Shown one piece after another: positions 914 to 23,335 of a DNA stretch of 64,000 bases. The notes beneath the pieces are model-generated. The model was not told the DNA's origin, made no database searches, and saw only the letters and a list, made by a program, of their open reading frames with translations. The stretch is taken from NCBI GenBank assembly GCA_963971425.1, contig OZ020514.1:23533406-23597405 (forward strand), in the 5' to 3' direction. Made by a program: the position numbers and the translations under genes. The stretch is from Bryoerythrophyllum caledonicum. Taxonomy: Eukaryota; Streptophyta; Bryopsida; Pottiales; Pottiaceae. Position 1 is the stretch's first letter. Each line of letters opens with the position of its first letter.

Positions 914-1335
914 TGTTGGAATATAGTGTTGCTCGTAGTTATTACGGCATTGTAAATAGTTGTATTGAGGTAGAATGAAAGGGCGGGAGTAAAATGGGAG
1001 AAAATGGAGAGAGGTGTACTGGCACATGTTGCACATGGGCAAGGCAAAGTCAAAAGAGAAGGACCAGCCCACTTGTGTTGACTTAGCCAAGTCCAAGAAG
1101 GGGCATGAAAGTCAAGTGGGTGGTGGCAAAAGTCTTTCGGCGGCCATGACGCCCATGTCGGTTGTAAAGACATGGAAGTTGCATGAGAAGGCACTAGGAA
1201 TGTGTCTTGTGCAATGGTATAAGTAAAGGCCTTCGAAAGAAGGCAAACATCTCATTCCAAACATTGTTTGTACTACCTTGAGTGTATCTTTGCTAGTGCA
1301 ACCATCTCTCTTCTTCTATTTACTTCAATACAACA
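914..1335 (+). repeat. family B copia LTR (solo)
   Basis: It begins TGTTGGAATATAGTG and about its first 184 bases match, inverted, the LTR next to the family B gag-pol at 43226-43410. The right end is placed at TACAACA near 1335 by its likeness to a TG...CA terminus. A full LTR of about 420 bp would be nearly twice the family A length. No flanking 5-bp duplication was found and no internal sequence follows. Confidence 0.65.
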
Positions 1336-2680
1336 CTCATTTACTCCGAGCATTTACTCAGTCAACCGATACAATTTAGCTCTATCCAACCTAAAGTATA
1401 CTAGAGATCTAAGCGTACTATCACTAATTAAATGGTCTAGGGAGTTCCTCCATAAGCCTCTATACGCGTCTTCAAAAGAGCCCTCTGGTGTTGCCTAGTC
1501 CATGTTGCGCCATTCTCTTGCATCAATGGACTCTCTAGAAGACGCTGCAAACCCCGCCTACGCACCTTGTTAGGGTTTGATTTGGGCAGCGAGTGTCGGC
1601 GGGTGGGAGCGGAAGCAGAGCATTGGTTTCCAGCAACATTTCCTGAGAGAATACGGGGGCGGAGACATTTACTAGATGGTTCCTGCAAAATAGGCGCCAC
1701 ATACAATCCAAACAAATACACTGTAGATCAAATACTCCTACAAAGCACACATGAAAACTGTATCATTAACATCCATCCTAGTGCACTTTAGGTCGAATGG
1801 AGCTAAAATGCTAAACGGTAAATTCACAGACCACATTTAACATCCAACGAATAAAAACAAGCTCAAATGAAGCAAAACTAGATCAGTGCAATGTTGCTCA
1901 ACCACAAACCAAGATTGCCTAGGCAAGAACGACTATATAGTGCAATAACTTGGAGGTCATCATAACACGCAAGGCGAGCGAGCGTTGGGAAGTAGCATCC
2001 CTTATACCGTCATAGAGGATACGCTTTGCCGGAGTATAATTATCCGGATTTAGACGCGGAGACCCTGGAACTGAACGAGGCCACTAAGGCGAAGAGGAGT
2101 TGATTCTATCATGAATTGGCTCCCGCGCAATGGGGCTTTCATCAACTCCGTTGTCCACTGCCATGGTCGAATAATCCATAGTTGACTGCGCGGTTGCGAC
2201 AGAGTGCAACAAAAGCCCTTTACTGCGAAGGCAAAGAGCGAACTCCTCTGGACCCAGCAAGGAATCCACGGACGCTCGACAATCACAATCCTATAGAAAT
2301 TTTCAACCGAAGCGACGCTCACATACCTCAGAACAATAGATGAAAACTCCAATCATTCAAAAAAGCCGACATTCCATCACCAGAAGGTTTCTATTCCGCA
2401 CAACAAACAAAGCGGTGAAACATCTCGGTTTCATTTTTAAAAATATATGTATACACAAAAAATGATCCAAAAAAATTTACAAAAAGGAGCTTCAGTCAAT
2501 CGATACAGTTTAGCTCTATTCGACCTAAAGTATAATAAGGATCTACGCGATTCCAACGGCATTAAGAGCGGAGATTCTGATAGGCTTGGATTGAGTTCCA
2601 GATACTTGCAGACTGACCACACGTCTTCGGATCATTATAGAACATCTCCCGGCCCGAGGGATGTTCGGCCCGGTACTGCG
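1336..2680. other. no clear gene; one duplicated segment
   Basis: Short ORFs here have no recognisable domains. A segment of about 70 bp at about 1358-1425 recurs at about 2490-2560 in the same orientation; both contain a degenerate form of the TTTAGCTC palindrome followed by AAAGTATA. Another degenerate palindrome lies near 1785-1810. The FCP1-like sequence beginning at 2681 may have had more 3' exons here, but I cannot define them. Confidence 0.45.
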
Positions 2681-3310
2681 CTAGGCCTCCCGGAACAGAT
2701 GAAGGTCAGAGAGATATGGAAGCAATTCCTCCAGCAATACAGAATCGTTTCTCGCGCCATCATGTTTGTGCAACCATGATGGAAGAAGAAGGACGTTCTC
2801 CGGCAAATTGAGCATATGCTTAATCGAGCTGTCGTCAATGACAAGCGTATTCGCCGGAGTATACTCACAACTCCAGCTATTGAAGAGATGGTTTGATAAG
2901 GTCTTCAAGAAGATGTCCTTCTGAGTGCCATATTCTTTCATGAGGATTGTCATGTTACCAACTCTACGCTCGGGAATCCTATCGCAACTCTCCTGACCAA
3001 AGATCCTGAGAGGGTACGAAGAACTATGCTGAAATAGATATTAACAAATCTGACACGTTGTAGATTCCATCATCGAACTCCAGATCGTGATAGTGGCAAT
3101 CTTAGACGACTTTGTGAGGAATTCAGCACAACTAGAGTGCACTCGGAGTAGTTTAGGGCCTACTTTGGCCGGCTGCAAAGCCGAGTAAATGGACAAGATA
3201 GAGTTCCTCGATCCCCTCGCCTGCCATGTAGGCTCACACGTGCATAGAATCCCATTGAGGTCCAACACAACATTCAACCACTTGCCCTCAAAATCTGATA
3301 GGACTCTAGG
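2681..3310 (-). pseudogene. FCP1-like (HAD-type) phosphatase domain
   Basis: On the minus strand the segment carries VVLDLNGILC, resembling the DxDG/DLNG first motif of FCP1/SCP-type CTD phosphatases, then ATITIWSSMM, FGQESCDRI, and later NTLVIDDSSIKHMLN and LLEELLPYLSDLH, the usual FCP1-homology order. A TAA at 3041-3043 lies in frame between the first and second halves, which otherwise continue in one frame to a stop at 2681. The classic DxDxT loop has Leu-Asn where the second Asp would lie, so catalysis is doubtful even without the stop. Members of this family dephosphorylate the RNA polymerase II tail; no such role can be claimed here. Confidence 0.6.
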
Positions 3311-3389
3311 TATTTTTCTAGATTACTGGCACCACTTATTGATGCCTCGCAGACCTGGTTCGGAAACGCCAGCAGAATGAACAATATTT

Positions 3390-3772
3390 CTAAAGATTCA
3401 TTAACAATGACGGGGTCAACAAAATGTAGAATGAAAGATGCAAACAGGGGAGAGGCTTCATGGGGGGAAGAGTGGAGTGTGAAAAGTGATAGAAGATTAT
3501 CTCAAGAACTTCATCATCTTGTTGCATTTCAACCCGGACCCCCATCGATCCCAACCAACCCTGCATGTTGTCAAGGGGTTCCGAGTGCTCCACAACCATT
3601 TGGGGGGCCGATTCCAAGACAAGAAGAGGGGGCTCCGGGACAGCAGAATCATAATTGATCTCGACTACAAGCACAGCCGAACTTTGGACAAATTCTTCTA
3701 CGACTGGGACTATAGTTTGGACAACCTCATCTACGACAAGGTGTGCGATCGCGTCATCACCAAAATTTAGAT
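3390..3772 (-). pseudogene. exon 6 of the large gene: acidic linker before the phosphatase-like domain
   Basis: The splice acceptor TTGAATTTTTCAG precedes this segment, and its phase matches the donor CAG|GTTAGT at 3979. The encoded stretch starts DLNFGDDAIAHLVVDEVV and is rich in Asp, Glu and Val, with no recognisable domain. The frame closes at 3390. The FCP1-like frame begins about 80 bases further on in another frame, so a frameshift or an undetected intron lies between. Confidence 0.45.
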
Positions 3773-3978
3773 CTGAAAAATTCAACAACTTCAACCCATC
3801 AGGTGATACACACACATGACAGTGATGCAAGTCAGAGTCGTCAGATGTGAAGCAGTTTAGCTCGAGTCGGGCTGAAGTGCTTGCTGAGCATTGTAATATT
3901 CACAAAAAAACTGGAGTACAAAATTGGACATTTACAAAATGTTCTGCCTCTATACACTCGCAACTACGTTACACTAAC
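3773..3978 (-). other. intron 5 of the large gene, with a degenerate palindrome
   Basis: Donor GTTAGT at 3978 and acceptor TTTTTCAG ending at 3773, 206 bp. It contains one degenerate copy of the 21-bp palindrome near 3855-3877, the only copy in this part of the locus. Confidence 0.5.
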
Positions 3979-4936
3979 CTGACAATGAGCTAGGGACATG
4001 AACGATAGATACGTCCTGAGCGGGCGACTCCGGAGGGGAAGAGGCACGGGTCGACGGGGATGGAGGAACTGGAAGCAATTGAGCCCCCATGAAGACGGGC
4101 GAGGAACCCGTCGGAGTTGGCAGTAGCGAATCGTGGGACAAACTCTCAATCCCTTCTTCCGCTGAAAGGGGAGGCTGGGGGATTGCAGCATTAACTGCGG
4201 GTGGTGTCGTGGCGGCAGCAGGCAAATTAGCCGTCATGAATCTCTCCATCATGAGCATCATGTCGGCATGCCTTTGGTCTTGGTCCCTCTTCATCTCTTC
4301 ATCACGCCTGCGCTGCAGATCCCTGAGCTCTACGTCACGCTCCGCGAGCCGCTGCTCCATCAACCTCATCCGAGTGGCCTCCTCTTCAAGCTTCTTCTTG
4401 AAGGAGATCAACCTGTTGTCATCCTGTGCACTGCTCGCCGTAGCCAACAGAGAGCGGCCGCTCGCGTTGGCGACCTTCCTCTTCTTGGCCGCAGGACGAG
4501 TGGATGACCCGTCCAAGGTGGGAGCTGAATGAGGCCGGTCGGAAATCTCCAACGAATCCAACTCCGGAAAGTCGAGTCGTTGCCGCGAGGAACCGATTGT
4601 GTCTCCTGCTTCAGATTGAGAGGCACTCTAAAACTCCGGCGGAGTGGCGTCAACGAAGTCGTCATGGGATTCATCATCCGGAGTGGTGGTGCTCGAGCTC
4701 GGGCACGTAATCAGGGAGCTCGGTTCCACATCTTCCTCCTCATCGCCAAAGTCAACAATTGCTTTCCCCTTCCCCTTGGCAACGGCCTCTCCAAGCTCGG
4801 GGAATATCTCCGCGTTGACGTGATATACAACAACACCGAAATCGGCCCGATCCAACGTCAACGCGACCTCCATGGCGTCGTCGAGTTCCTGCTCATCGGT
4901 GTCGTGGGAGATGCAGAACGCCTCGAGATCCAACAT
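3979..4936 (-). pseudogene. exon 5 of the large gene: acidic/Ser-rich region and coiled coil
   Basis: The exon opens after the acceptor TTCGTGTGTAG with an ATG-led stretch (MLDLEAFCISHD), continues through an acidic low-complexity segment, meets one in-frame TAG at 4628-4630, and then runs in the same frame to a donor at 3979. The later part has a basic patch (AAKKRKVANASG), which could be a nuclear localisation signal, followed by a charged helix (KKKLEEEATRMRLMEQRLAE onward) with coiled-coil spacing, and a Pro/Ser-rich tail. A single nonsense change is the only visible lesion. Confidence 0.55.
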
Positions 4937-5221
4937 CTACACACGAATGGATAGAACAAGTTACAGTTTAGGTCGAATTGAGCTAAAGTGAATACATACA
5001 ATTACTGGTACGAAAACTCAACTATTACAACTTGAAAGGTTACGACGCTATTGATGACTGCTAGAAAATCATATTTGTATAAGCCAGCACTTTAGCTCGA
5101 GTCAAGCTAAAGTGCCACGCTACAGAATCATAAGAGACTACCTCTCTGAAATAATCCATGCACAGTCAGAGAGGGTATCAACAGTTTAGCTCGACTCGAG
5201 CTAAACTGCAGGAAAACTTAC
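4937..5221 (-). other. intron 4 of the large gene, with three palindromes
   Basis: A strong donor (GTG|GTAAGT at 5221) and acceptor (GTGTGTAG ending 4937) define 285 bp in phase 0. It contains an exact palindrome at 5185-5205, a one-mismatch copy near 5091-5111, and a degenerate copy near 4957-4977. Confidence 0.7.
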
Positions 5222-6602
5222 CACACTCCCAATCAGTAATTTCGTCCCGCCAAACAGCTGGACAACTACCTCCCCCTTCTTGCAGAACAGTGCCAAGACC
5301 TTGATGAAGAACTCCATCCTCACCTCGTTCATGTTCATGGAGTACGCCAGCTCGTTGTACTTGCGCAGCTTAGTGTGCAACACATGCTCTAGAGCTACAT
5401 AGGTCTTCTTCACGGCCGGGATCTCCGTGAGCTCTTTCTTGAAGAGAAAGAGAAGGCGAACAAGGTCGAGAGCGTTGTTGTTGTTGGGCACATAGCCTTC
5501 CAAGCGCTCGTTCTCAGAGGGAAGATACTTCGACTGCAGCACATCGTACGCATGGCACAACAACGGGCCCTCAACAAACGCGGTCACTTGAAGGTGTAAC
5601 TCCTCGTCGCCGCAAATGAAGAGCCATGCTGGAAGATCGGTGAGGGAAGGCTGCCCTTTCGATGCAAACATCGTCATGAACTCGCCAAAGAATGGCCTCT
5701 CAAACAACAACGTTGCCTTCCCAGAGAAACTAGGGATATTCCGGAAGTCGATGATGCCGAGCTTCACGTTGCAGCCCAAGTTGCGCTATGAATCCGAAGG
5801 CTACGTCCCGAGCGAATTCGTCACCGCCTTGTACGAACAAAAGTGCAAAGCCCCCTGAGGTGCAACGAAGTGCGACCGCACATCGATGAAGGCTCTGAAG
5901 AACTCTTTAGCATACGGAGAGAGATCTTTCACATTTGCAGTTGCGAAGCTGCGTCTGCCTCGAATCCTTGTAGTAAAAATCCGGTGGACCCCAATCCAAG
6001 AGGGCTCGCTTTGAGGCCTTGCTGACGTTGTAGTTCTTCTTAAACTTCCGCCAGTTGGAACGACTGTACGCTCCAGTGCTGTTGAAGAAGGCCAGCTCCG
6101 GCATGATCAACTGAAGCTCCATCCGAGCGACCTCCTTCCTCTTCCTTCGATCGACTCAGTCCCTGGCGTTGTAGCAATCCTCCAGCACAAATTGTAGCTG
6201 CTTCACAACCACCTTAGGGTAAGGCTGTTTCCGCAATAGCCCTGACCAATTGAGAATGTGCTTACACGTTTTCGCGTGATTGGCTTCGGTCATGTTGCCA
6301 AAAACCTTGAAGAACTCGCGCGTCAGAACCCGATCCTTCTCAGGCATCCAAGACTTGGCGTCCTTGAACTTGGCCAAGGGCGTCGAAGTCCAATCGACGT
6401 TGATGAGGTCGCCATGTGCCGCCGAAGAGATGACATCGGACCAGAGCTTGAAGGTCTCATTGGTCGAGGTGTTGATCTTCACCTCGTTTGTAATCGAGAG
6501 CTCCTTCGCCTTTCCGGCTTTCTTGAGCGCTGCGTGGCTCTTTACCACGTCGATCATAGCAAATCGCTCATGAACCGCGTTCAGAAATGGGTGCGTTGAA
6601 CA
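5222..6602 (-). pseudogene. exon 4 of the large gene: unknown conserved-looking region
   Basis: The minus-strand reading starts around LNAVHERFAMIDVV and carries long open stretches at 6557-6156, 6122-5907 and 5779-5222 with one in-frame TGA at 6156-6158 and frame changes between 5910 and 5780. No domain is recognised. The 3' end meets a strong donor at 5221. The expected acceptor at 6603 reads CAA where CAG would sit, exactly at a phase-0 codon boundary; that could be a mutated splice site. Confidence 0.5.
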
Positions 6603-6817
6603 TTGGCAGGGATAAATTAGTTAACAATCTTAGTAGAACTTAAACGTGTCCAGCAGGATCCGGAAACTGCAAATTAGCTCGAGTCGAGCTAACTTGCAAC
6701 CTGAGAGTTTACACTAAAAGCGATTGAATCTACATTCAATACTATACAGAAAGTGAGTAAGCATGCAAGTTAGCTCGAGTCGAGCTAACGTGCAAGACCA
6801 TGGTTAAGTAATTTTAC
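6603..6817 (-). other. intron 3 of the large gene, with two palindromes
   Basis: Donor GAG|GTAAAA at 6817 in phase 0; the acceptor is probably degraded (CAA at 6603-6605). Two palindromes with 9-bp arms (TTAGCTCGA and TCGAGCTAA around G) lie at 6674-6692 and 6770-6788. Confidence 0.55.
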
Positions 6818-8263
6818 CTCAAACCTCTTGTCATTGGCAATCTCCAACGCCGTTCTCCGTCCTGACTTGTGAGACGTGCAAATGCCTGCGGCGGAGTGCT
6901 TCGGCATCGGTCTCCCAGCTTGGATCCACAACGCCTGAGAGCCGAGAATATTGGTTGCCCACGTTGGCTTGAATTGTACCAAGTGATTTACGCGATTATA
7001 ATACAAAGAAATCTTCCTCAGCTTCTCCGGGTCCTCCGCCCAGACAATGTAACACTGCCATGTTCGAAAGTGCCTTCTCATAACCTCCGGGACGTTGTTG
7101 TTTATCATCGACTTTGATGCTGCAACGCTGTGCTGGCCGTTGATGATATAAAAGTCGCAATCGCTGAGCTCCTCAACTGTCATTGGCTATGATCGAGCTT
7201 GGGCATGACGCAGAGAGTCTGCTTCTGCGTCTTATCCGGCATTTCGAGGTAATAATGCTTTAACTCCTCCATACCCTGAGGCTCGAATGCACGGATCGTC
7301 CACTCCGGCGGTGCATTATGTAACCTCATCACTTCAAGCTCGATCTTCATCTCTCTGTCTCTTTGGAAGAAGCAGCTTTGACACTCCGTCCAGAATTTTT
7401 GGTAAATTTATTGGACGTTGTTGTAGTCGATTGTCTCTCCGAACCCAAGCGCCTGAGGAAGCTCAGAGAGTGCAAAGGCCATCGAATTGGCTAACCCCTC
7501 CTGTGATACGAGCTTTGTCTTCTATCTGGAAGAGATCTCCGGCTTCTTGGCAGCTGAACGCTTCTTGACGAGAGAAGCGGATAGCGTGTTGCGTAGGGTG
7601 CTTCGACTTGTTCTAGCACCTAGTGTTCTAACCAGTACCAACGCTTGACTCATATCCTGGCTACCGGTCACGGCCCCTGAAACTATCGATATTTCTATCG
7701 GGCGTCTCGCCGCGATATTTTTTGCCTTCTCTAAAGCGGCAAAGGTAATCATTCTCGATAGAATGACGCGGAGTTTATTCGCTACAGCCTTAGCTTTCAG
7801 CCGCTGACCACTACTAGTCTCCCATTTTTTAAGCAAAATTTCGTGGTCGATCTGAGCCACTATTTCATCAAACTTAGACCTCCTCAGAGAATTGACTAAA
7901 TCTTTTATACAAAATGGAGATGAATTATTGTTCACTACAATAGTGAACAAATAAGGGTCTACGGACTCAGTGGTTGTCTCATACGACAACTTAACGTGAT
8001 CGTTATCTTCGTGGACAACATTAGTAATCCTGGTCGTGAAATCGATGTGCTGAGGTTCGACGATATCACCAGCGAAGGTCTGACCGAACACTAGATTATT
8101 CGTGTAGGTGGCCCACAAAAGCGTGCACTTTAGTGTCATTAATGGGTCCTTGAGCTCCCAACAATCCAAGTGGTTGTTGTCGTCTCCATCGTCATCATCA
8201 AGGTCGACGGGCTTTGGCTAGAAGAAGTGCTGCAGCTGATTCACCATCCGGTCTCTCTCAGAT
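6818..8263 (-). pseudogene. exon 3 of the large gene: conserved N-terminal region and NGQH motif
   Basis: The exon starts after acceptor TGTACAG and parallels the inverted copy at 22067-23335 almost residue for residue: an HFF-PKPVD start, an Asp-rich run, HLDCWELKD, VFGQTF, VHEDNDHVKL, then a Lys/Ser-rich basic stretch. The 3' part has FYIINGQHSVAAS followed by RHFRTWQCYIVW. NGQH resembles the [D/N]GxH signature of ParB-like and DGQHR proteins, a weak link. Lesions are TAG at 8218-8220 and 7522-7524, further stops in the 7.2-7.5 kb part, and a one-base shift near 7190. Confidence 0.65.
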
Positions 8264-9445
8264 CTGTACAGACACGAAACCAAGCACAAGTATTAGGTTG
8301 CATAAGTTATCATCCAACTAGGTTAGATAGTTTACCCTTTAGCTCGACTCGAGCTAAAGTGTAACCACACACAAAGTATGTCAATAATACTCTTCAATAA
8401 AATATAGTCTATAGGGGAAAAATTCCTAGACCCTTTCAATCAATTCATGCCTACTTCTCGTTCAACTCCATAAACCGTGGAAAAGCTTCCAAACCGATCC
8501 AATCACTCACGATCCTCAGGCTTCGAGGTTCTCAAGTGTTTGGAACGAGACTGAAGCTCATTCGCGATTCAGGAAGCTGAATGAGAAGTAGACATGATTT
8601 GTGATACTAGTCTGCATTTACACGACTGTAACATTGTTTTAATCAAGCTTTAGCATTATCTTTAGCTCGACTCGAGCTAAAATGCTTTAACTTAGAATGT
8701 AAATCTGAACAGCTTTGACACTTTCAATATTTCTACGGAAGACTTGCGGAGATATTTTTTTCAATTCATGTCTACTTCTTGTTCAACTTTTGAAACTGTG
8801 AAATAGCTTACAAACCGATTCAATCACTCACGAAGCTCCCTCTTTGAGGTTCTCAAGTGGTTGGAGCAGGACTTAAGCTCATGCACAATTTCTGAGAGGT
8901 GAACCTGAAGTAGACATGAGTTGAGTCATCGATAACATTGGTAAAATACTTCTAAAATGTTTTCTGTCTAAAGGTACTGGTGCTTGAGTTGTGGATATGG
9001 TCATTTGTTTTACACTTTAGCTTGATTCGAGGTAAAGTGCTTCGAGTTTTATGAAAAAAATGGGATTTTTTTGAGACCTAGAGTTTTAGAGTAGATATAT
9101 CGATCACTTTAGCTGGAGCTGGGCTTTAGCGCGACTACAGACGCATTCAGTGATACATTTTAGCTCAAGTCGAGCTAAAGTGCAAACAAAGATGCACTGG
9201 TCCTGTACATTTTTGGACTATTTGAGCGGAAATGTACTGGTCTAATGCATTTTCGTCTGCACTTTAGCTCGACTCAAGCTAAAGTGGAGCCAACAGTGTG
9301 CACTGTAGGCTACACTTTAGCTCGACTCGAGCTAAAGTGTGTTTAGTGAATGCTGACTTTATTACAGTTTGTGCATGATTGTCCTCCGTCTTATGATATT
9401 TAAGGCGTAGGATTGAGGGCTTCTGGGTGAGGATATATATTTTAC
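8264..9445 (-). other. intron 2 of the large gene, palindrome-rich
   Basis: Donor AAAG|GTAAAA at 9445 and acceptor TGTACAG at 8264. It holds exact 21-bp palindromes at 8338-8358, 8661-8681 and 9316-9336, single-mismatch copies at 9158-9178 and 9263-9283, and degraded copies near 9012 and 9107. It is homologous, inverted, to intron 2 of the right copy (20792-22066), including a segment resembling TCAATCACTCACGA and TGAGAAGTAGACATGA. Confidence 0.75.
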
Positions 9446-9503
9446 CTTTCAGCCATAGATAATGAAATGTAATTCAAGTACTTTTCTGCTGGAACTAGTC
9501 CTC
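9446..9503 (-). pseudogene. exon 2 of the large gene, carrying the start codon
   Basis: A 58-bp exon after acceptor TTATTGCAG with the ATG at 9456-9454. Only ATGGCTGAAAG is coding before the donor, and it joins exon 3 as MAERSERDR. The right copy at 20734-20791 has the same exon length and the same ATGGCTGAAAG|GTAAAA junction, which supports both the start and the splice site. Confidence 0.75.
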
Positions 9504-10216
9504 CTGCAATAACAATAACAAACCCTCACACAATCAAACAACCAATAACTCTATCCCAAAACCAAAAAACAATGACATGCACACGTAAACTACAACCACA
9601 CAGAAGCAATCAGAATGCAGAACCTCAAAAATACCTAAACATAAAGCAGTACATTGAACATTCAACACATTGAACGTTTCAACACATTCAACGATTCAAC
9701 ACATTCAACATTCAACACATAGAAATCATCACATTGAACCCAAAGCGGCACATTCAAAGCAGCACATTGAAACCAAATTTTCAACAAAAAAACCGAACTA
9801 GCATCAAAACAAAAAAAACAACATGCACACAGAATGTTGCGCAACATAAACACAATAATTCAACACACCTAAACACAAAGCAGCACATTCAACATTGAAA
9901 TCAACACACACACTCACAACATATTCTAATACAAACGAAAACCAAATTAATGGCTACTCTGCCTCTTTCACCAGAAAAAAAACACAACTGACATCAACAC
10001 TAACATAGAAAATACCACCAATTCCACAAGACAACACATATATCAAAAGCAATGCAGACACAAAAAATACCACCAAACAGAAAATACCACCAAACAGAAA
10101 ATACCACTACACAAAAAATACCACCACAATAAACACTACCACAAAAAGAACCACCAAACAACACATACATAAAAAGTAATGCAAGACATTGCATTAAAAC
10201 ATGCATGTGTGCACTT
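9504..10216. repeat. low-complexity AC-rich sequence in intron 1 of the large gene
   Basis: The plus strand is dominated by runs such as ACATTCAACACATTGAAC (about 9650-9760) and repeated AAATACCACCA (about 10010-10160). The inverted counterpart at 20312-20733 has GTGGTTTG and AATGTGCTG runs. Intron 1 lies between donor AAG|GTAAGT (10217-10218 on the minus strand) and acceptor at 9504. No coding potential is seen. Confidence 0.65.
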
Positions 10217-11000
10217 ACCTTCGACTCCGTTGCTGCACGTCTTGCTCCTTGTTCACGTTGGTCTTCCGCGCACAGCCGTTTCTGACTCTATGTGCTTAAA
10301 AACTCACACAACAATAATCCTTACTTCCTACAAACCCTTTCCGCAGATTAGCAAAGCGCTACACAAAAAAATTGCGCAACAAACCGTAACTCTAACGCTA
10401 GAAGAAGAATAAGAAGAATAACGCCGACATCCAGAGGGGCCGGCGTGAATAAAGTGTCTACTCTAACGCTACAATATACACAAACTCAGCAAACCCTACT
10501 GAAAACAACACGAACACAAGCGGCAACTCTAACAACACCATATTCGTTATTTTGGTAGATTTAACGACTCCCAAATTAACACATGTAGATTATAAGAGCT
10601 AAAGTGCACATCTAAACTCTACAATATGGAGGGATATGAGTTTCCATTAAATTGGGAGGTAATGTTTTCTACAGAAACCCCTAGAAAAATAAGTACTATG
10701 GATAACATTACATTACGAATCTAACTATAATATTGAAAAGAAGAACACATTAGTTGACACTTCTTTCATACCACATGTGTTCATTGAATATGAATAGCTA
10801 AATATTCACACTCGATCCTACTAACCCGGATTAATACCATGCTCCAATTTAGCTAAAAGTGAGCTAAATGACGGACAAATATCCACTTGTAAGAGAATTA
10901 GCTAAACACATTTTGATGACCCTTTATTTATTTAAAAGAATTTCAATTCTCCTTGTGGAATACACATTGGCAAAAAATATGTATAACGAGTTTCAAATGA
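10217..11000. other. presumed 5' UTR and promoter side of the left gene copy
   Basis: From about 10219 to 10440 the sequence is inverted-homologous to 19.94-20.31 kb, for example AGCCGTTTCTGACTCTATG against the inverted match near 20225-20245. This would be exon 1 and the upstream region of the minus-strand gene. Homology fades beyond about 10.5 kb; from there to 11.0 kb the DNA is AT-rich with no recognised gene. Confidence 0.5.
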
Positions 11001-11009
11001 TGGTGCTCA

Positions 11010-11215
11010 GAAGTGGAAAAAAAATTGCACACACTACCTCTCTTCGAACTAAAGTGTCCCCATCACTTAGAGGTGCAATGAACTCAAAAAATCAATTCCA
11101 CACACTTTACCTCCACTTGACCTAAAGTGCGCACCATTACCAAGTACACTGAACTAAATAAGAAGATTTGCTCACACTTTAGCTCCACTAGAGCTAAAGT
11201 GCAACCCAACATTTA
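11010..11215. repeat. degenerate tandem repeat of about 70-75 bp with TTTAGCTCCACTAGAG palindromes
   Basis: Roughly three units share the order CACACTTTAGCTCCACT...CTAAAGTG, CACCATCACTAAGTGCA, GAACTAAA. The best palindrome (arms TTTAGCTC and GAGCTAAA) is near 11180-11200. The same unit recurs at 17100-17340 and 18895-19015, so this is a dispersed relative of the main palindrome with a different centre. Confidence 0.65.
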
Positions 11216-11612
11216 CTTTCTATCATTCACCATGAAGGCAATTACTGGTATTATTGGTTTCAAGACTAGAAGCAATTTACCACATTATTATTTTAAAAAG
11301 AAAATAAAACATGCTGCAAATTATCATCGATACGCAAAAACAATGAAGAGAATATTTCATAGCAATCATTGGCATCACATATTATAGTCATACAGAGTGT
11401 AAATTAATCAAATACAAATATCTATAATCTCAGCACCAATGGATCTAACCATACTACATGAAGTATTACGCATCAGAATCTAAAATCTAGGAAAAGGAAA
11501 CTCCATTTATCTAAGTCTATTACGATTCGGACCTGGCAAGTGCTTCCAAGGAGGCCTTGATAATTGCTACTTGTCCCTTCGGAATTTTTGTAGTTGAATC
11601 TTGCACATGACC
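11216..11612. other. AT-rich spacer, no gene seen
   Basis: AT-rich sequence with no convincing ORF between the repeat block and the 3' end of the transposase-like gene. It presumably includes that gene's 3' UTR. Confidence 0.5.
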
Positions 11613-14352
11613 TCAATCCCTCTTTGAAGACCTAGGTTTCCATGCAGTCAAGATTGAATCGGTACTCTCCCACGTTATGGCTATCCCCTTTTCAATTGTC
11701 CAGCAAAGGTTGCAATCTGTATCCCAATCTTTATAGAACTTCAGAACATCCCAGTCGCGCGATATACGGCGGAAGAATTGGATACGCACAGTGTTTGGCA
11801 TATCCGGGTTAGAATTAGGATCTGAAACTGCTTGAGCAATCCAAAATGGGCGCTCGTCCCCATCACAAGGCCGCAATGCAACAAAATAGCCAGCAAAAAA
11901 ATCACGATCAACTCTAAAAGAAGCAGGTGGACGATTGCGTCTCTGGCCAACAAAATGCTCATCTTCACGGTACTCCTCGCGAACCTCACCCTCCGCTGAG
12001 AACTCATCTTCAATGGCATGGGCAATTCGCGTCGTTGGCCAAAAGCCGTCTTCCAATGATATTGGCATATCCATTGGAATTATCAAAGCATCTCTAACAT
12101 CGCGCCAATAATACGATAGCGGCTCAAAACGTGATCTGGCTTCAACAGACTCCCGCGATGATTGCTCCCAGTGATCGATGAATCCTGAAAGTCCCTTCAC
12201 CACCTCATGGAGATGTCGCATCATAGAAGGCTTCAATGCATCAGGTTCTCCGCGAGGCCATAAAGATCTTCCTTCAGAATCTTCCTTCCACAATTTGATG
12301 CCACTACCTTCTCCTCCCTTAGGAAGCCAATCCTCATCATGACAAAGGATTTTATACTTCATTACCGGACAACCACTACAGTCCACATAAAACTTGAACT
12401 GATGAGCCTTCGTATGACCCTGCAAAGCTTCATCACCGTCCGCAATCATATCCCCAATGAACTTCTTAAAGTCGGGAACCTCTTGGATGAGATGTCGGAT
12501 TGTGGGAACACTCTCATTTTTCATAAACGACCTCATGAGCAAAGGAATGGTTGGAAAACTCTCGTTCCTCACTGTCATGCTCCAACGTCCAAATAATGCA
12601 TCTATATCATCATGTGTATGACCAACTAGCATGAAATTAACATATACCTCGCGGATGATGCATTTTGCAACAAGGAGAGACCAAAAACTGAAAACAAATC
12701 TATTTTTGTTATCACCAACTGCATTGTCTATTTGCACGTTCAATATTGGTGGCAAAGACCTCCCTCAAACTGGGATATCTGGAATCGGCCCTAATGGATC
12801 CAAACACATCTCCGCACCCCGTAATACCGCCGCATACAATGGATGAGAATCAGATTCTGGAAAGAGTTGTCGGGACGATGACTTCGGAGGCGCCTCCAGA
12901 TCACGCAATAGTTTTGCGAACGACCCGACCGTGTAATTGGCATCATGGGAGTATTAATCAAGGCCGTAATGGGCGAAACGTTGGTCCACATGACCATGGG
13001 CAAGCATGCCTGTGATTGCAAGAGGCAACTTCATAAGCCCATCTAGGTGCTTTGTTTTATGTGAAAAAACCGGGGAGGCGGTCTTTGAGTGATCGATCTT
13101 ATCATGCATGATGGTAAGAACCTCCTCGGGCGATGACTTTGATCGGAATCGGTTCAGGTAGTACAAGTCCCGATGTGAGAAAGCAGAATCAATGTGAACC
13201 TGCATCTTCTTTTGCCATAGCAGTGATGCTTGTGTTCTAGGTTGAGTAAGCTTCTTCTGATCCTGGTATTTGTCACAAGTAGAACAACGGGCAAAGTTGT
13301 CTCCACCTTTCTTCGCATAGTACTCAGGGAAGCTCACTCGCCGAATCTTACTCAAGCTTGAGGTTGAGATTGGCGGCAATCCACAATCAGCGAGATGATC
13401 ATCAAGAAGCGGTATCTGATCCTTCCACTTAAAACTTGCAGGTAAGACCTTTGCCACAGCCTTCTCGCCAGATGGGAGAACACGAGACTTGTGAGGCATG
13501 TGGTCCGCATGTCTGTTGAGAATGGCTCCTAGAGCGGCAGTAGCCACAACCGTATGACCTCTAGGCTTGCGTAAACCGGTATTCCCGTGGTGTTGAGCGG
13601 CATGACCAGCGGCAGCGTCCTTCGCATTCCGATAGAAAGTACTCGAACTTACACCCATGATTTTCATCCAGGCATGGGCACAAACGTCCAAACCCTCCAG
13701 GGTCACAACCTTCCTACCCGCAGCGTTTCTATGAAACTGTCTGTGAACGTCGAGTTTGATATGATTTCTGAACTGCACAATGGTCTCAGTGTACAAGCGA
13801 GTCTGAAGGACACTGTATTTTATCTCTAGGGTAGTGTTGAACACAGTTTTTACTGCAACAACTATTGCTCGCAACAGCGTTAATGGAAACAGGGGTCATG
13901 AGGAATTCAGCATTCCTGGACACTGTTGGACGTGTATTCCTTGAGGAATTGTCGTACGAACGGGAGCTCCTACCTAGAGGTCTCTTACGCTCAACCAAGC
14001 AGACATTGTAAACGTCTCTAAGGCAATGATGGAAGAGACTCACACCGTTTAAGAAGACTTGTTGAATAGGCCAGGACTTAAACAAGTACCTCCACTCATC
14101 AGGAGCTTCCTCCAGAACAAAAGTACTGGACACCTGTATTACAACATTCAAATCTCCAAGAGGACGAGAGGAACCTAGAAGTGCACTGGACCGGGCATTG
14201 CGAACCAACCCCTCTGCAACGCGAACACCCGAACCATTGTGAAGCGAAACTGTCATCCGGACCTAGAGACGGCGAGGAATAACATCAAACTCAGGAAGGT
14301 CTGCGTTCACGGGAGCGTCAACATGAACATCGTCGCCCTCCGAAGACGACAT
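11613..14352 (-). pseudogene. DUF7869-type transposase-like protein, broken
   Basis: Minus-strand coding sequence with the family's landmarks in order: a Cys-rich start of the core (NSCCSKNCVQHY, near 13850), VSSSTFYRNA, HHGNTG, a CSTCDKY zinc-type pair, HDKIDHSKTASP (near 13100), HGHVDQRFAHYG, QIDNAVGDNKNRFVF and LVGHTHDDIDALFGRWS (near 12600). Conserved Asp residues in HDKxDH, QxDN and GHTHxDxD suggest an RNase H-like nuclease fold; that is inference. The start is placed at the ATG at 14352 (MSSSEGDDVHVD), just after a possible acceptor AATGCAG. Lesions are an in-frame TAG just upstream of 14256, a frameshift near 13830, and stops and shifts at 12750-12960. The last 380 codons are uninterrupted. 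Confidence 0.75.
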
Positions 14353-14532
14353 CCTGCATTCCAATGAGATTAATATTAAATAACCCTGACAAATAAGATT
14401 GGGAAAATATCTTGTAGGAATAGACATCAATGCAGAAGCATAGGAAGAGGGTAATTAATCTCAAATCGAGGTAAGGTCTGGCGCTTAAAAATAACTATGA
14501 TTCAAGTGAGTTGACACTGTAAACCAGGCAAA
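14353..14532. other. region 5' of the transposase-like gene
   Basis: No ORF. A possible splice acceptor (minus strand, AATGCAG before 14352) and a possible donor GAG|GTATGT near 15572 would place the palindrome array inside a 5' UTR intron of the transposase-like gene. Both sites are read by eye only. Confidence 0.3.
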
Positions 14533-14553
14533 TTTAGCTCGACTCGAGGTAAA
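14533..14553. repeat. single palindrome, one mismatch
   Basis: A copy of the 21-bp palindrome with one changed base in the right arm (GAGGTAAA), about 108 bp left of the regular array. Confidence 0.8.
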
Positions 14554-14640
14554 CTCATGCGGTATTTTATGACAAGTATAAAATTTCATGCGATTAGTTA
14601 TATTCCGAATATGAAATTATCTCACCCTAGTCAGTGACAA

Positions 14641-14994
14641 TTAAGCCCGACCCAACCTAAATTAATGACTATCAGACTCATTGTCATTTTATCTCGAGTC
14701 GAGATAAACAGAAATAGAAAATAAGGTATGACAGTTTAGCTCGACTCGAGCTAAACTGTCTTACCTTCTTTCTTGGGACAGTTTAGCTCGAGTCGAGCTA
14801 AACTCTCATTGGAAAGAAGGTAAGACAGTTTAGCTCGAGTCGAGCTAAACTGTAGATACATTATAGTATCACAGTTTCTCTCGACTCGAGCTAAATTGTC
14901 TTACCTTCTTTCCAATGACAGTTTAGCTCGACTCGAGCTAAACTGTCCTTGGAAAGAAGGTAAGATAGTTTAGCTCGAGTCGAGCTAAACTGTT
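14641..14994. repeat. 47-bp-period palindrome array forming a large inverted repeat
   Basis: Palindromes begin at 14641 (degenerate), 14688, 14735, 14782, 14829, 14875, 14922 and 14969: intervals 47, 47, 47, 47, 46, 47, 47. Five are exact. Spacers alternate between TTACCTTCTTTC and GAAAGAAGGTAA, so 14730-14994 is itself an inverted repeat centred near 14862, where the central spacer reads GATAC-ATTATA-GTATC. It could form a cruciform in DNA or a long multi-branched hairpin in RNA. It lies upstream of the transposase-like gene. Nothing identifies what it binds. Confidence 0.9.
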
Positions 14995-15607
14995 CTTCCG
15001 TGATTCTCGGCGTCTTTTTAGGGATTCATATGGTAAAACTCTTCAGCCTGTGAATCTGACTCTCTGTGTACTACAACCCAAATCTTTCTGTCAGTCGTCA
15101 AGAAACTCGTAGTGATGCTTCAAAATCAGAGTAGCAACTGGAACCACCGCAATAACCCTACACACTGTCACATCCTAATTGCTAGAGACTGTGCACGGAG
15201 AATGCAAGAAGTATACATTATATACCTTTTGAAGAAGACAACTGGTGCGTTGTTGCCTCGCGCAATCGCCCTGCTCAACCGTGCGCAACCTATAGATGTT
15301 ACCCTCCTCAACCTCCCACAATTGTACCACCTCCAAGCCTCTCTACACCAACCTTGCACAGCAACCAAACTGAGAAGGAAGAAAATGAAGGAAGTTTTTG
15401 AGGTACGGCGAGGTCACCCACGGACACACGACCGTCTCAGAATTGGCCGAAGGAAACTTCAGAATTGGCGGGGGGACTTTTCCACAGCCCCTAAAAAAAT
15501 GCAAATTCAAAATCTTAGCGGGAAACTGAATCAACTATTTCTTGGCTGACTAAAATAAGGAAGAGTACATACCTCGAATCTACTCGCACATGCGAGTTAT
15601 ATACAAG
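14995..15607. other. spacer upstream of the transposase-like gene
   Basis: It holds a 145-codon plus-strand ORF (15112-15549) without domain or codon evidence and a possible minus-strand donor (GAG|GTATGT, about 15572). I see no supported gene. It may be the 5' UTR/promoter side of the transposase-like gene. Confidence 0.4.
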
Positions 15608-15748
15608 GTTTTAGGGTAACGCTCAGGGTTTGGGTTAGGTTTAGGTTTAGGATTAAGGATTAGGGTTTTTCGGGTTTGGTTTTAGGGTTTAGGGTTTGGT
15701 ATTTAGGGTCAGGTTTAGGGTTCAGGGTTTAGGGTCCTTCGTTTAGGT
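15608..15748 (+). repeat. interstitial degenerate telomere-like tract (TTTAGGG type)
   Basis: About 140 bp contain many TTTAGGG and near variants (GTTTAGGG, TTAGGGTTT, GGTTTAGG), the Arabidopsis-type telomere unit. Irregular spacing and many variant units point to an old interstitial tract or a telo-box-rich promoter rather than a chromosome end, since unique sequence continues on both sides. Confidence 0.8.
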
Positions 15749-17095: not shown

Positions 17096-17340
17096 CTCAG
17101 TTTTTAGGAGAGGTGTGCACCATCACTACGTGCAATGAACTAAAAGGAAGGTGTGCACAAACTTTAGCTCCACTGGTGCTAACATGTGCCTCATCACTAG
17201 GTGCAGTGAACTAAGAAGAAAATATGAACAGTTTAGCTCTACTAGCTCTAAATTGTGCACCATCACTAAATGGAGTAGATTAGAAAGCAAAAATGCACTA
17301 TGTAGCTCCAGTATACAGAAGATAGCTTCTAGAGAAGTGG
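17096..17340. repeat. degenerate tandem repeat, second block
   Basis: About three units of the 70-75-bp repeat (ACTTTAGCTCCACT, GTGCACCATCACTA, GTGAACTAAAA...). The palindromic cores are partly decayed, for example TTTAGCTCTACTAGCTC. Confidence 0.65.
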
Positions 17341-17344
17341 ACAC

Positions 17345-18440
17345 TAAGTAGGAATCCATACAATAATTGTAAAATGTACAATAAGTGTAGTGACAAAACT
17401 ATACATCACCCAATGTCAACTACCACTCTAAATGTCAATCCTAGTAAATAGTGGAACATAAAGTTTTTTACTTGTGGACAATTAGTTTAGGAAACCTTAA
17501 TCATGGTTTGATTACATCTTGAGCATCATAGTAAAGAAGGGTTGAGTGCATGTAGAAAAGCAAGAATTTGCAAGAAAGAGCTTGGGAATAATCGGACGTA
17601 GGTATGGAGCAAACCAAAAATATCAAAAATTGGACAAAGTAGAATGTAAAATATGGAGGGAAAATGAAACAACAAGTAGAAAATTGGAAATATAAGAACA
17701 TTCTTCTGGAAACAAAAATGAGTAAAGAAATGAATATTCGAAAAGGAAAAAACTTAAACATACAATAAATATAGAAATACAAGTAAAATACTCATTAGAT
17801 ATCCATCACATATTATGCATTCAATGTGCATTACATATTCAGTAAATATTCATTAAATACTAATTGAATATTCAAATACACATTAATTTTACATTAGAAA
17901 TTTATGCACTATTCATTAACTAATCATTAAGAGTGCATTAAATACTCTATAAATAATCATTAAATATACAAATATTAATTAAACTATCATAAAATATACT
18001 TTTAAAACTTCAAACATTCATTAAGTAAAATTTAAATATTCTTTAATTGTGCATAAAAGTTACAGATATACAAATATACATGAATTATCCTATAAAAAAT
18101 CATTACAAAGTCATTAGTTATTGGCTAATTATATGATTACACATTAAATATTCATTAGATAATATTAAAATATATTTTAAAAATGCAAGAGATGGGAATG
18201 AGAATAGTTGTGAATAAGACGATAAGAAATTGAGGTTGAAGATGAGACGAAGAATAAATGCATGGCGACCGGTAGTCAAAACATATTGAGCTTACTCAAT
18301 TTATCAAGTATCAAAATTGTGTGCTAGGGAAGAGTTTTGATAGAGGGCTATTACAAAATGAATTATAGTAGGTGAACAAATGAGGGATAATATTCATGAC
18401 AATGGTGGCTAAAACTAGTTTTCAACTTGTTGACGAATAG
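17345..18440. repeat. AT-rich low-complexity tract (ATTCATTAAATA-like)
   Basis: About 17780-18180 consists of irregular repeats of CATTAAATA, ATTCATTA and related 8-12-mers. The rest is AT-rich and gene-free. Confidence 0.6.
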
Positions 18441-18452
18441 TGTACTAGAAAA

Positions 18453-18850
18453 AGAGAATCTCCACCGGGGCCGAGGGACCGGGATGCAAGAATAAACACG
18501 GTAAAGCCCACTCCGTGAGGCCTAGGCCGGTGTCTCGGCCCACTGGAGTGGCGGCGACGGTTCTTCTAAACAATAAATTTACAAATAGTACAGGGAGACC
18601 AAAATTCCCCGGGAGCATGTGTTCAATCATGTAATTACACGAGGGAATTAAAGAAAATCAATAAACACCCTAAAAAAAATTAGCCTACTATGGCGTTAGT
18701 GTTGGGCGCTGGCGTTCCCTCACAGTGGCCAATTCGGGGACGGTGCGGGGGGAAAAGGGTAACCCCCCTCCCTTCATCTCAAACTTGGGCACCTTCCCGC
18801 AGGCGTGGAAAATTCTCCGTCAGGGGTGGAGATGCTGTAACTACTGGATT
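18453..18850. other. GC-rich island in AT-rich DNA
   Basis: Two GC-rich stretches (about 18460-18560 and 18700-18830, with CGGGGCCGAGGGACCGGG and GGTGCGGGGGGAAAAGG) contrast sharply with AT-rich flanks. No ORF or RNA gene is recognised. An inserted foreign or organellar fragment is one explanation. Confidence 0.4.
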
Positions 18851-18894
18851 TGTACCGTTAGAGTAAAAGCAAAATGAAGTGAAAAGTAAAGAAA

Positions 18895-19015
18895 AAATTC
18901 ACACTTTAGCTCTATTAGAGCTAATGTGTGCACCATCACTAAGTGTAGGGAACTAAAAAGGAAGTATGCACACTTTAGCTCCAATAGAGCTAAAGTGTGC
19001 ACCGACGTTTATTTT
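18895..19015. repeat. degenerate tandem repeat, third block
   Basis: Two units with CACTTTAGCTCTATTAGAG and CACTTTAGCTCCAATAGAG palindromes separated by GTGCACCATCACTAAGTG and GGGAACTAAAAAGGAAG. Confidence 0.7.
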
Positions 19016-19935: not shown

Positions 19936-20311
19936 TTTCGTGCGCAGTTTATTGGAGGTTAGGGTTTCCTACGGATAGGGTTTGTAGGACGTGCGATTTT
20001 TTGTTGTGTGAGTTCGCGTATACTGTAACGCTAGAGTTTAGGGCTGTTTGTGAGAGATTGTTTGAGTTTCTGTGAGTTTGTGAGAGTTTGTGAGAGTTAA
20101 TGTGAGTTCGTGTGAATTTCTGTGAGTTTCTGAGAGTTTCTGTGAGTGTGAGTTTCTGAGAGTTTCTAAGAGTTTCTGTGAGTTTTTGTGAGTTCCTGTG
20201 AGTGTGAGTTTGTATGAGCACGTAGAGTCTGAAACGGCCCTACGTGGAGGATTGACGTGAACATGGAACAAGACTTGCAGCTATTTCAGTCGAATTTCTC
20301 AGTTTCCTAAG
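19936..20311 (+). other. promoter side and exon 1 of the right gene copy
   Basis: Inverted-homologous to about 10219-10440. Exon 1 (5' UTR) would end at 20311 with donor AAG|GTGAGT, at the position equivalent to 10219 in the left copy. The transcription start is not visible. Confidence 0.55.
20048..20218 (+). repeat. GTGAGTTTCT-type minisatellite
   Basis: About 15 irregular copies of 10-12-bp words such as GAGTTTCTGT and GAGTTTGTGA. The left copy of this promoter region lacks the expansion, so it grew after the copies separated. Confidence 0.75.
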
Positions 20312-20733
20312 GTGAGTGCACATATTCAGTCTTGCATTTCTTTCGATATTTGTGTAGTTTTGCTTTAGATATGATGTATTGAAACATTATGATAGCATTG
20401 CTTTTGATGTATGTGTGAGAAAATAGATGAGATTGTGTATTCAATATGCTGGTTTGAATGTGGTCGTTTGAATGTGGTGGTTTGTGGTGGTTTGTGGTTA
20501 TTCGTCGTGGTTTGTGCTAGTTTAAATGTGCTGGTTTGTGCTAGTTTAGATGTGCACATTGAGGTCAATGGTCTAGTTTCAATTGCTAAATTCAATGTGC
20601 TGAATTCAATGTGTTAATTTCATTGTGCTCATTTGAAAGTGCTGATTTCATTGTGAATGATTTCAATGTGTTGGTTTCCATGTGCTACTGTGATTGATTT
20701 TGTGTGTGTGTGGGTTTGTTATTGTTGTTGCAG

Positions 20734-20791
20734 GACGTCTAGTTTCAGCAGAATTTGTCTGGGATTAAGGTTCATAATCAATGGCTGAAAG
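20734..20791 (+). pseudogene. exon 2 of the right gene copy, with the start codon
   Basis: A 58-bp exon after acceptor GTTGTTGCAG with ATG at 20781; ATGGCTGAAAG is followed by donor GTAAAA. Same length, start and donor as 9446-9503 on the other strand. Confidence 0.75.
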
Positions 20792-22066
20792 GTAAAATCC
20801 ATGCTCTCATCCAGGAGCCCTAAACCCTACGCCTTTAATATCATAGATCGAAAGAAGAATCTGCACAACCTGCAATAAATAAGCTCTTCAATGAACACAG
20901 TTTAGCTCGAGTCGAGCTAAAGTGGAACATCGATATTGCTCTAATGTCCACACTTTAGCTCGACTCGAGCTAAAGTGGGCCTCCACTGTGCACTATTGTC
21001 GAAACTATAGCTCGAGTCAAGCTAAAGTAGGCCTCCACTGTGCACATTTGGCCACACTTTAGCTCGAGTCGAGCTAAAGTGCGCTCTCCAGCATGCTCCT
21101 TTGGCTACACTTTAACTCAACTCGAGGTAAAGTGTGGACAATAGTGCACAGTGGAGGCCCACTTACGCTCGAGTCGAGCTTAAATGTACGACTAAATACG
21201 TCTTTGGTTGCGCTAAAGCCGGCTCTAGCGAAAGAAATTAAAAAAAATTGGACGTCACTATCGGTCAAAAATGTCATGACCTTCAAGTAAAGCCATCACA
21301 CTTTACCTCGAATCGAACTAAAGTGTAGGACAATAAACATAAACAACAACTCAAACACAACAACATTCGGACTCTAAACATTCCAGAAATATAGTATACC
21401 AATGATAATTATGACTTAACTCATGTAAACTTCTCGTTCACCTTTCACAAGTAGGCAAGAGCTTCAGACCCGCTCCAACCACTTGAGAAACTCGATGAGT
21501 GAGGTGCGTGAGTGATTAGAGCGGAACTGAAGCTCTTCCACAGTTCTGAAAATTGGACGAGAAGTAGCCATGAATTAAATCAAATAGTCTAGTAAAGTCG
21601 TTTGAATGATCAATGTTAGTGTCAGAACCACTCAGCTATGCATTCTATGTATAAGCACTTTAGCTCGAGTCGAGCTAAAGATGCAGCTAACGCTTGATTA
21701 CAACATTGTTACAGTCGTGTAATTGTAGTCTAGTATCTCAACTCATGTCTACTTTTCGTTCACCTGTCACAAATCGTGCATGAGCTTCAGTCCCGCTCCA
21801 ACCACTTGAGAACCTCTAAGAGTGAGGTTCGTGAGTGATTGGATTGGTTCGTAAGCTTTTCCACGGTTTTGGGAGTTGAACGAGAAGTAGGCATGAGTTG
21901 ATTGAAAGGGTCTAAGAGAATGTTCTAATTGACTAAATTTTGTTGCAGAGTATTATTCACATACTTGTATAACGTTACACTTTAGCTCCAGTCGAGCTTA
22001 TGTGTGACCTCGCCATCCTAATCGGATGATCATCTAATATCTTTGCTCTGTTTCGTGTTTTTATAG
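20792..22066 (+). other. intron 2 of the right gene copy, palindrome-rich
   Basis: Donor GTAAAA at 20792, acceptor TTTTTATAG ending 22066. Exact palindromes lie at 20901-20921, 20954-20974, 21058-21078 and 21659-21679, with degraded copies near 21006, 21110, 21160, 21300 and 21975. Spacing of the first six is about 50-53 bp. The copies at 21659 and 21975 correspond in distance from exon 2 to those at 8661 and 8338 in the left copy. Confidence 0.75.
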
Positions 22067-23335
22067 ATCTGAGAGGAACATGATGGTGTCTCAGCTACAG
22101 CACTTCTTCCAGCCAAAGCCTGTCGACGTTGACGATGACGATGGAGACGACAACAACCACTTGGATTGCTGGGAGCTGAAGGACCCATCGACGACACTGA
22201 AGTGGACGCTTCTGTGGGCGTCCTATACGGATCATTTAGTGTTTGGTCAGACCTTCACTAGTTCTATCGTCGATCCCCAGCACATCGACTTCAAGACCAA
22301 AATTACTGATGTAGTCCACGAAGATAACGATCACGTTAAGTTGCGTGTGAGACGACCACTGAGTCCTTAGATCCGTATTTCTTTACTATTGTAGTGAACA
22401 ATAGTTCATCTCCCTTCTGTATCCAGGATTTAGTCAATTCTCTTAGGTCTTCCAAATTTGAGGAAATAGTGACTCAGGTCGAGCATGAGATCTTTCTTAA
22501 GAAATGGGAGACTAGTAGCGGACAACCGCTGAAAGCAAAGGCTGTAGCTAATAAACTGCGCGTCATTCTATCTAGAATGAGTTCCTTTGCCGCTCTAGAT
22601 AAGGCCAAAAATATCGCAGCAAGACGCCCGATAGAACTTTCAACGGTCTCGGGGGCCGTGACCGGTAGCTTGGACATGAGTCAAGCGTCGGTACCGATTA
22701 GAACTCCAGGTGCGAGAACAAGCCGAAGCACCCTGCGCAACATGCTATCCGCTTCCCCCGTCAAGAAGCGCTCAGCTGCCAAGAAGCCAGAGACCTCTTC
22801 AAGAAAGAAGTCGAAGCTCGTATCAGAGGAGGAGTTAGCCAATTTGATGGGCTCTGCACTCTCGGAGCTCCCTAAGGCTCTTGGATATGGAGAGACAATC
22901 GACTACAACAACGTCCAACAAATTTATCAAAAATTCTGGATGGAGTGTCAGAGCTGCTTCTTCAAAGGCGAGAGAGAGATGAAGATCGAGCTTGACATGA
23001 TGAGGTTGCATAATGCACCGCCGGAGTGGACGATCCGTGCGTTCGAATCTTGGGGCATGGAGGAGTTGAAGCATTACCACCTCCAAATGCCCGACAAGAC
23101 GCAGAAGCAGACTCTCTGTGTCATGCCGAAGCTCGACGCTATGTCGACGACTATTGAGGAGCTCAGCGACTCCGACTTCTACATCATCAACGGCCAGCAC
23201 AGCGTTGCTGCCTCAAAGGAGATGATTAACGGCAACGTCCCGGAGGTGATGAGTAGGCACTTCCGAACATGGCAATGTTACATTATCAGGACGTAGGATC
23301 CAGAGAAGCTGAGGAAGATATCTGCATACTATAAT
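22067..23335 (+). pseudogene. exon 3 of the right gene copy, truncated by an LTR
   Basis: It opens SERNMMVSQLQHFFQPKPVD, then an Asp-rich run and HLDCWELKD, and follows the left copy through VFGQTF, VHEDNDHVKL, the basic Ser/Lys segment, LPKALGYGETIDYNNVQ, CVMPKLDAM and FYIINGQHSVAASKEM. A one-base deletion near 22347 shifts the frame and a TAG follows CYIIRT at 23294-23296. A minus-strand copia LTR begins at 23336 in the middle of the conserved segment, so the rest of the gene is missing. It lacks the early stop seen in the left copy, so the two decayed independently. Confidence 0.7.

Follow-up and report, generated by a model that had tools for sequence, protein, structure and literature searches.

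The locus described here raises the question why eight copies of a short palindrome are strung together at almost constant intervals. It lies in a 64,000-nucleotide stretch of the genome of the moss Bryoerythrophyllum caledonicum (contig OZ020514.1), which is referred to below as the window. The preliminary description of the array had proposed that it could be a multimeric binding site for a dimeric protein, a replication or recombination structure, or a hairpin precursor of small RNAs, and had taken its regularity as a sign of selection or recent amplification.

Structure of the array and of its repeat unit

The eight copies start at positions 14641, 14688, 14735, 14782, 14829, 14875, 14922 and 14969, and the spacings between them (47, 47, 47, 47, 46, 47 and 47 bp) confirm the intervals of 46-47 bp noted before, with the qualification that the first copy is the weakest (15/20 core letters). 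Five copies match the consensus core fully, in agreement with the five sets of perfect arms reported earlier, and the copy at 14688 carries a change made symmetrically on both sides. The limits 14641-14994 assigned to the array were too narrow: the cluster also contains copies at 14455-14475 (15/20) and 14533-14553 (19/20), and the motif recurs across 1375-22001. The array is a local amplification of a wider palindrome family.

An inverted repeat had been described at 14730-14994, centred near 14862. This repeat is real; its arms (14731-14853 and 14871-14993, 123 nt each) are 93% complementary, with 17 nt between them and the centre at ~14862. The same DNA consists of two 128-bp units placed in tandem with a period of 140 (Table 1), each made up of a palindrome (P), a spacer (s), a second palindrome, a spacer in the opposite orientation (s') and a third palindrome. 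Since the units have palindromic ends, recombination between them could turn a spacer round just as readily as it could remove or double it, and in this way spacers of alternating orientation would arise without special design. The super-palindrome can be resolved into a ~140-bp tandem duplication combined with spacer inversion and is best read as a by-product of these, a designed object finding no support; the 47-bp period is likewise read as a by-product of tandem duplication and of spacer inversion between palindromic units. With regard to the array as a mobile unit of its own, of the MITE or foldback type, repeat comparison detected the long super-palindrome once in the window, where only the 27-bp unit recurs. 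The proposed phasing close to 4.5 helical turns had to be given up, because other clusters in the window use other spacings (52-53, 69, 72 and 94-104 bp). Helical phasing is also ruled out as an organising rule by the spacings in a related contig, L001 (see below), where a spacing of 80 bp is followed by one of ~46 bp, measured by eye to a copy that is truncated where the contig stops.

The unit is an odd palindrome, as described, but the length of 21 bp given for it was too short: the conserved dyad clearly spans 27 bp (CASTTTAGCTCGANTCGAGCTAAASTG, with the half-site CASTTTAGCTCGA), and pair 14 is weak. With at most 3 mismatches allowed, 33 matches were found in the window, all of them between 1787 and 22001 and none in the Copia-rich DNA beyond; when the window was shuffled 100 times with its dinucleotides preserved, no match was obtained. 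At least 15 of the 20 core letters were matched by 42 copies, 41 of which lie in 1340-23335, while the remaining one (15/20) is at 42083, within a Copia reading frame; at 14/20, three copies appeared in the Copia DNA of 24-64 kb. None of the 41 copies overlaps an exon (7886 of 21996 bp, with exon limits that were judged by eye on the basis of reading frames and of splice signals). When 11 clusters were placed at random with their internal spacing kept, zero exon overlap was obtained in 0.3% of the trials (p 0.003).

The symmetry of the dyad was analysed in 48 copies (41 from the window and seven from L001). Pairing is high over pairs 1-13 (29 to 46 of 48) and drops from pair 14 on (25, 19, 14). 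Pair 11 varies symmetrically (C:G 16, G:C 8, A:T 5). Over pairs 1-13 there were 23 symmetric double changes, a number reached in none of 2000 shuffles (mean 8.2), and 11 pair types beyond the first were counted against 5.1 in the shuffled sets (p 0.001). With the two arrays excluded (34 copies), the corresponding values were 15 against 6.1 (p 0.0005) and 9 against 4.8 (p 0.014); as the copies are related by descent and the arrays by duplication, all these shuffles overstate independence. The conservation of letters goes beyond mere pairing, which favours sequence-specific recognition. The symmetry looks selected, judging from the conserved dyad, the symmetric substitutions and the recurrence at corresponding noncoding places next to the same genes elsewhere.

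The element around the array

The array occupies a few hundred bases upstream of the start of a broken gene that belongs to the DUF7869 family (PF25273; Pfam match of the window piece, E 1.2e-32). This family has no assigned function, and a literature search found no paper using the name. The gene lies between two inverted arms, each of which contains one copy of a second, uncharacterised gene, called here the INGQHS gene after the motif of its protein; both copies read outward and both are degraded. Palindromes are also present upstream of both INGQHS copies. Taken together, these parts make up a degraded repeated element, apparently of moss origin.

In the main arm alignment (6995-9338 with 21004-23335) identity was 80% over 2365 columns, and inner pieces could be aligned in addition. 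Palindrome letters are identical between the arms in 148 of 162 cases and spacer letters in 776 of 1075, a comparison in which the marking of palindromes requires a core match and favours high identity; columns marked as palindrome in one arm only (24 of 44 identical) reflect differences in array size. Long inverted repeats flank the coding region, as in class II DNA transposons with long TIRs. A left element end, target-site duplications or an empty site were not found in the window, where the right arm is cut at 23336. Probably this is a repeated moss element with DUF7869 and INGQHS genes, and we regard it as putatively mobile.

Table 1. Features of the window that carry or surround the palindromes
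Feature	Position	Strand	Remarks
Four outer palindromes	1375..3876 (1375, 1787, 2509, 3856)	.	motif scan
INGQHS gene, left copy, degraded	3977..8238	-	exons ~8238-6800, 6606-5219, 4936-3977 (by eye)
Three palindromes, next INGQHS intron	4967..5205	.	first ~13 nt after 5' splice site (by eye)
Two palindromes, INGQHS intron 1	6673..6789	.	first ~25 nt after 5' splice site (by eye)
Left inverted arm	6995..9538	.	palindromes at 8338, 8661, 9016, 9159, 9263, 9316
Three palindromes downstream of DUF7869 gene	10848..11198 (10848, 11106, 11178)	.	16-18/20
DUF7869 gene, broken	11514..14356	-	interrupted by three stop codons and a change of frame; start codon near 14352 (by eye)
Palindrome array	14641..14989	.	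8 copies, 46-47 bp period, upstream of DUF7869 gene
First 128-bp unit, P-s-P-s'-P, itself palindromic	14726..14853	.	direct- and inverted-repeat comparison
Second 128-bp unit, P-s-P-s'-P	14866..14993	.	91% identical to first unit
Four palindromes, AT-rich noncoding DNA	17163..18994	.	16-18/20; motif scan
Right inverted arm	20699..23335	.	Copia LTR sequence takes over at 23336
Right-arm palindrome array	20901-21183		six copies, 52-53 bp period; further copies 21302, 21659, 21981
INGQHS gene, right copy, 5' part only, frame-disrupted	22080..23335	+	reading frames, homologues

Some further repeats were seen in the element. Upstream of the INGQHS genes each arm has two near-perfect foldbacks of 160-170 nt (8440-8601, 8761-8923, 21416-21577 and 21738-21900), which look like microRNA precursors or MITE-like hairpins; 8436-8605 folds on the minus strand to -80.6 kcal/mol (z -8.8) and 21734-21905 on the plus strand to -91.8 kcal/mol (z -12.6). 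Simple tandem repeats occupy roughly mirrored places (9651-10161, 17 bp units; 20046-20687, 10-36 bp units), and an interstitial telomere-like AGGGTTT run is found at 15625-15736, near the centre of the inverted-repeat element.

Relatives of the palindrome and of the two genes

A search for the exact 21-mer in 257 Gb of prokaryote assemblies (contigs of at least 3,000 bases) returned a single contig, L001 (CADCWO010000071.1), filed under a cyanobacterial bin. It contains an intact DUF7869 gene of 947 aa (Pfam E 1.6e-42) with 74% nucleotide identity to the window gene over 2845 bp, and outside this gene it matches the window in palindrome-bearing stretches only. Strong palindromes at 3819, 4194 (a perfect 27-mer) and 4274 are situated upstream of the start near 3724, and four weaker ones (15-17/20) downstream of the gene. 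As far as the contig reaches, the super-palindrome is absent from it. Among 89 DUF7869 homologues, drawn from the best 7999 candidates by shared words, seven had an organism name, and all seven were from mosses (two from Ceratodon purpureus, five from Physcomitrium patens); for this reason L001 is taken to be moss DNA misbinned in a metagenome. A cyanobacterial bin name like that of L001 is also borne by one INGQHS homologue, P0109.

As regards a transposase that the element might encode, D, N, K and H residues are invariant across 43 DUF7869 sequences. Comparison with solved structures yielded no match in one search and one chance-level match (E 0.11) in another. Two pairs of homologues are on contigs of equal size, P0062 and P0131 (313938) and P0092 and P0163 (87828), as noticed by eye; this suggests, judged from sizes rather than sequence, that the two genes lie together elsewhere too.

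Gene predictions for INGQHS homologues often run past exon 1 into the intron, and the palindrome therefore appears as a peptide (QFSSTRAKL, SLARLELNC or LDSS-stop). It is encoded past exon 1, near the C-terminus, in 18 of the 67 homologues. The peptide patterns were drawn up once 29 of the 67 had been viewed; carriers were 10 of these 29 and 8 of the remaining 38, some of these being close relatives of homologues already viewed. The shuffled expectation is ~0.1 in all for the 156 proteins (67 INGQHS and 89 DUF7869 homologues). One of the 89 DUF7869 homologues (P0021) encodes the palindrome, in an N-terminal extension. With widened patterns, which are post hoc and descriptive only, 36 of the 67 INGQHS homologues extend 12 or more residues beyond exon 1, and their tails contain the palindrome in 21 cases, a variant in 11 and neither in four; the other 31 either stop before the exon end (22) or have tails that are too short (9). 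The palindrome is 8-10 codons after the end of exon 1 in 18 of the 21 carrying tails, which end at the first stop codon and for that reason make the near copies alone visible. For the second intron a new query gave 10 homologues, seven of which run past the exon; two of the seven match the original pattern, and in the other five one or two residues deviate from it. Many INGQHS homologues are near relatives of each other, and these cases are thus not independent events.

To the authors of the preliminary description no element of this design was known. Two repeats with the same 15-bp core were, however, already in print: Pp01_31 and Pp08_44 of P. patens, reported as low-abundance tandem repeats with periods of 31 and 44 bp (Kirov et al. 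2018, PMC6302065). Their core, AGCTCGAGTCGAGCT, lies within a dyad that is perfect over 23 and 21 bp, respectively. They differ from the window in the outer arms, where TTT is replaced by ATC on either side, in their unrelated spacers and in their periods (46-47 bp in the window). Neither has the monomer and period of the window array; the 15-bp core alone is common. The period of Pp08_44, with the same palindromic core and an unrelated spacer, is nearly that of the array. In the main text of that paper 'palindrom' and 'inverted repeat' have 0 occurrences, and its passages on the two repeats make no link to DUF7869 or to transposon genes. The ATC version was also recognised as a peptide, ISS[ST]RA[DN], in four INGQHS homologues whose exon sequence resembles the P. 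patens homologue. A literature search for the 21-mer in either central form found no paper containing it.

A virus or phage origin was considered and rejected, as no relative of the palindrome, the array DNA, DUF7869 or INGQHS was confirmed in viral and phage collections: the palindrome had no exact match in viral_contigs and the array DNA no match in the phage collection, and in viral sequences a search limited to close relatives gave none for the DUF7869 protein, and pattern searches gave 12 matches for this protein and 38 for the INGQHS protein, 0 of either being confirmed.

Possible roles of the dyad

Of the functions proposed at the outset, the binding site for a dimeric protein is retained as the best reading, for which the conserved dyad, its symmetric substitutions and its recurrence elsewhere argue. 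Taking into account that letters are kept, that half-sites change together, that copies are placed in promoters, introns and arms and that they persist amid diverged spacers, we infer a site recognised by a dimer. It is in our judgement somewhat probable that the array is a cluster of dyad sites of a probably mobile moss element, bound by a homodimeric protein that the element itself probably encodes. Such a protein would bind the 27-bp dyads; through the sites upstream of DUF7869 and upstream of the two INGQHS copies it would regulate genes of the element itself, and the sites located in the arms, in introns or in spacers would serve to mark or synapse element DNA. Some observations fit this reading less well: single weak copies are also met in Copia DNA at looser cut-offs, spacing varies between clusters, the element copy in the window is degraded, and palindrome copies and homologues are related by descent.

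One conserved dyad links two orphan moss protein families with two published, unexplained P. patens repeats, and its 27 bp provide a ready binding-site probe for finding the protein. If the dimer-site reading is true, there would be a mobile-element regulatory code in introns and promoters, conserved across mosses, and a function for DUF7869 would be pointed to.

The closest analogue that we can name is found in the CACTA (En/Spm) elements, whose subterminal repeats consist of a short motif present in many copies near the ends and the promoter and bound by TnpA, an element-encoded protein that serves transposition as well as autoregulation. The likeness would consist in a short multi-copy motif and an element-encoded binder, which is putative in the present case; unlike in CACTA, the site is a 27-bp dyad and is also located in introns. 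No TnpA/TnpD-type family was among the Pfam matches of the scanned proteins.

In ParB/parS, too, palindromic sites form arrays next to a gene, and the INGQHS product has a motif (FYIINGQHSVAASK) that by eye presumably resembles box II of ParB; to this extent the two systems are alike. When compared with nine plasmid ParB-family proteins, the INGQHS profile aligned on box II with a score of 13.7, which is within the range of the column-shuffled and unrelated controls (9.8-16.0); a ParB domain in the INGQHS protein is not supported by this comparison and is retained as a lead only. Single-sequence comparisons of INGQHS with ParB gave no match, the ParB family is absent from the Pfam matches of 30 INGQHS members, and no ParA-type family was among those of the scanned proteins.

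A wider version of the dimer-site reading, which we put forward tentatively and consider doubtful, is a moss-wide mobile-element system with one dyad code, which would read TTTAGCTCGA in certain mosses and ATCAGCTCGA in P. patens and have half-sites that evolve in step. It would be placed at the promoters of the element's own genes, shortly within their introns and in the arms. A single element-encoded dimer, possibly ParB/parS-like, would then couple transcription or splicing to transposition or segregation.

A role of the palindromes in RNA appears unlikely. Hairpins in 5' leaders and introns would control splicing or yield small RNAs, and the array, if transcribed, would form a long hairpin feeding siRNA silencing of the element. 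The hairpin idea of the preliminary description is kept as a rival on account of the stable fold of the minus strand of 14600-15020 (-251 kcal/mol, z ~-25). Consistent with it are palindromes ~13-30 nt after the 5' splice sites of two different introns, the 170-nt near-perfect foldbacks that the arms also carry, and the position past exon 1 shared by 18 of 21 tails (near copies alone being visible), a fixed intron-1 position that would fit an RNA-level role as well as the dimer site. Sense-strand mismatches in 1300-15000 of the window and L001 are more often G.U than A.C (16 against 8), but 28 further mismatches there are neither, and the right arm shows the opposite tendency (G.U 0, A.C 3, other 7). 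Against an RNA role it also speaks that nearly all pairs keep their letters instead of swapping freely, that copies are present in intergenic AT-rich DNA, and that L001 has no super-palindrome within its length. A known RNA family was ruled out, since Rfam gave 0 matches at gathering score in the window.

We think it similarly improbable that the palindrome is a selfish or passive satellite-like sequence which has no binding function and was spread by tandem duplication, gene conversion and hairpin-mediated repair that keeps the arms symmetric. Tandem duplication is plain in the array, the P. patens tandem repeats of 31 and 44 bp share the core, and gene conversion could produce symmetric changes; yet next to two specific genes the palindrome is met again with its letters unchanged amid diverged spacers, isolated single copies persist in introns, and the neighbouring Copia DNA has 0 copies at up to 3 mismatches.

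It is very improbable that the array is a replication or recombination structure (cruciform, origin or terminal-type repeat) in the middle of an inverted-repeat element: it lies near the symmetry centre of the arms (~15.1 kb) and folds as DNA to -149 kcal/mol, but the two centres are ~250-300 bp apart, isolated copies in introns and promoters do not fit, and the copies in L001 are scattered.

Beyond the right arm, at ~26.9-39.1 kb, reading frames of the same size recur about four times at a step of 2984 bp. The first set holds pieces of a Copia reverse transcriptase, and either Copia pieces are arrayed in tandem here or the recurrence was produced by the assembly.
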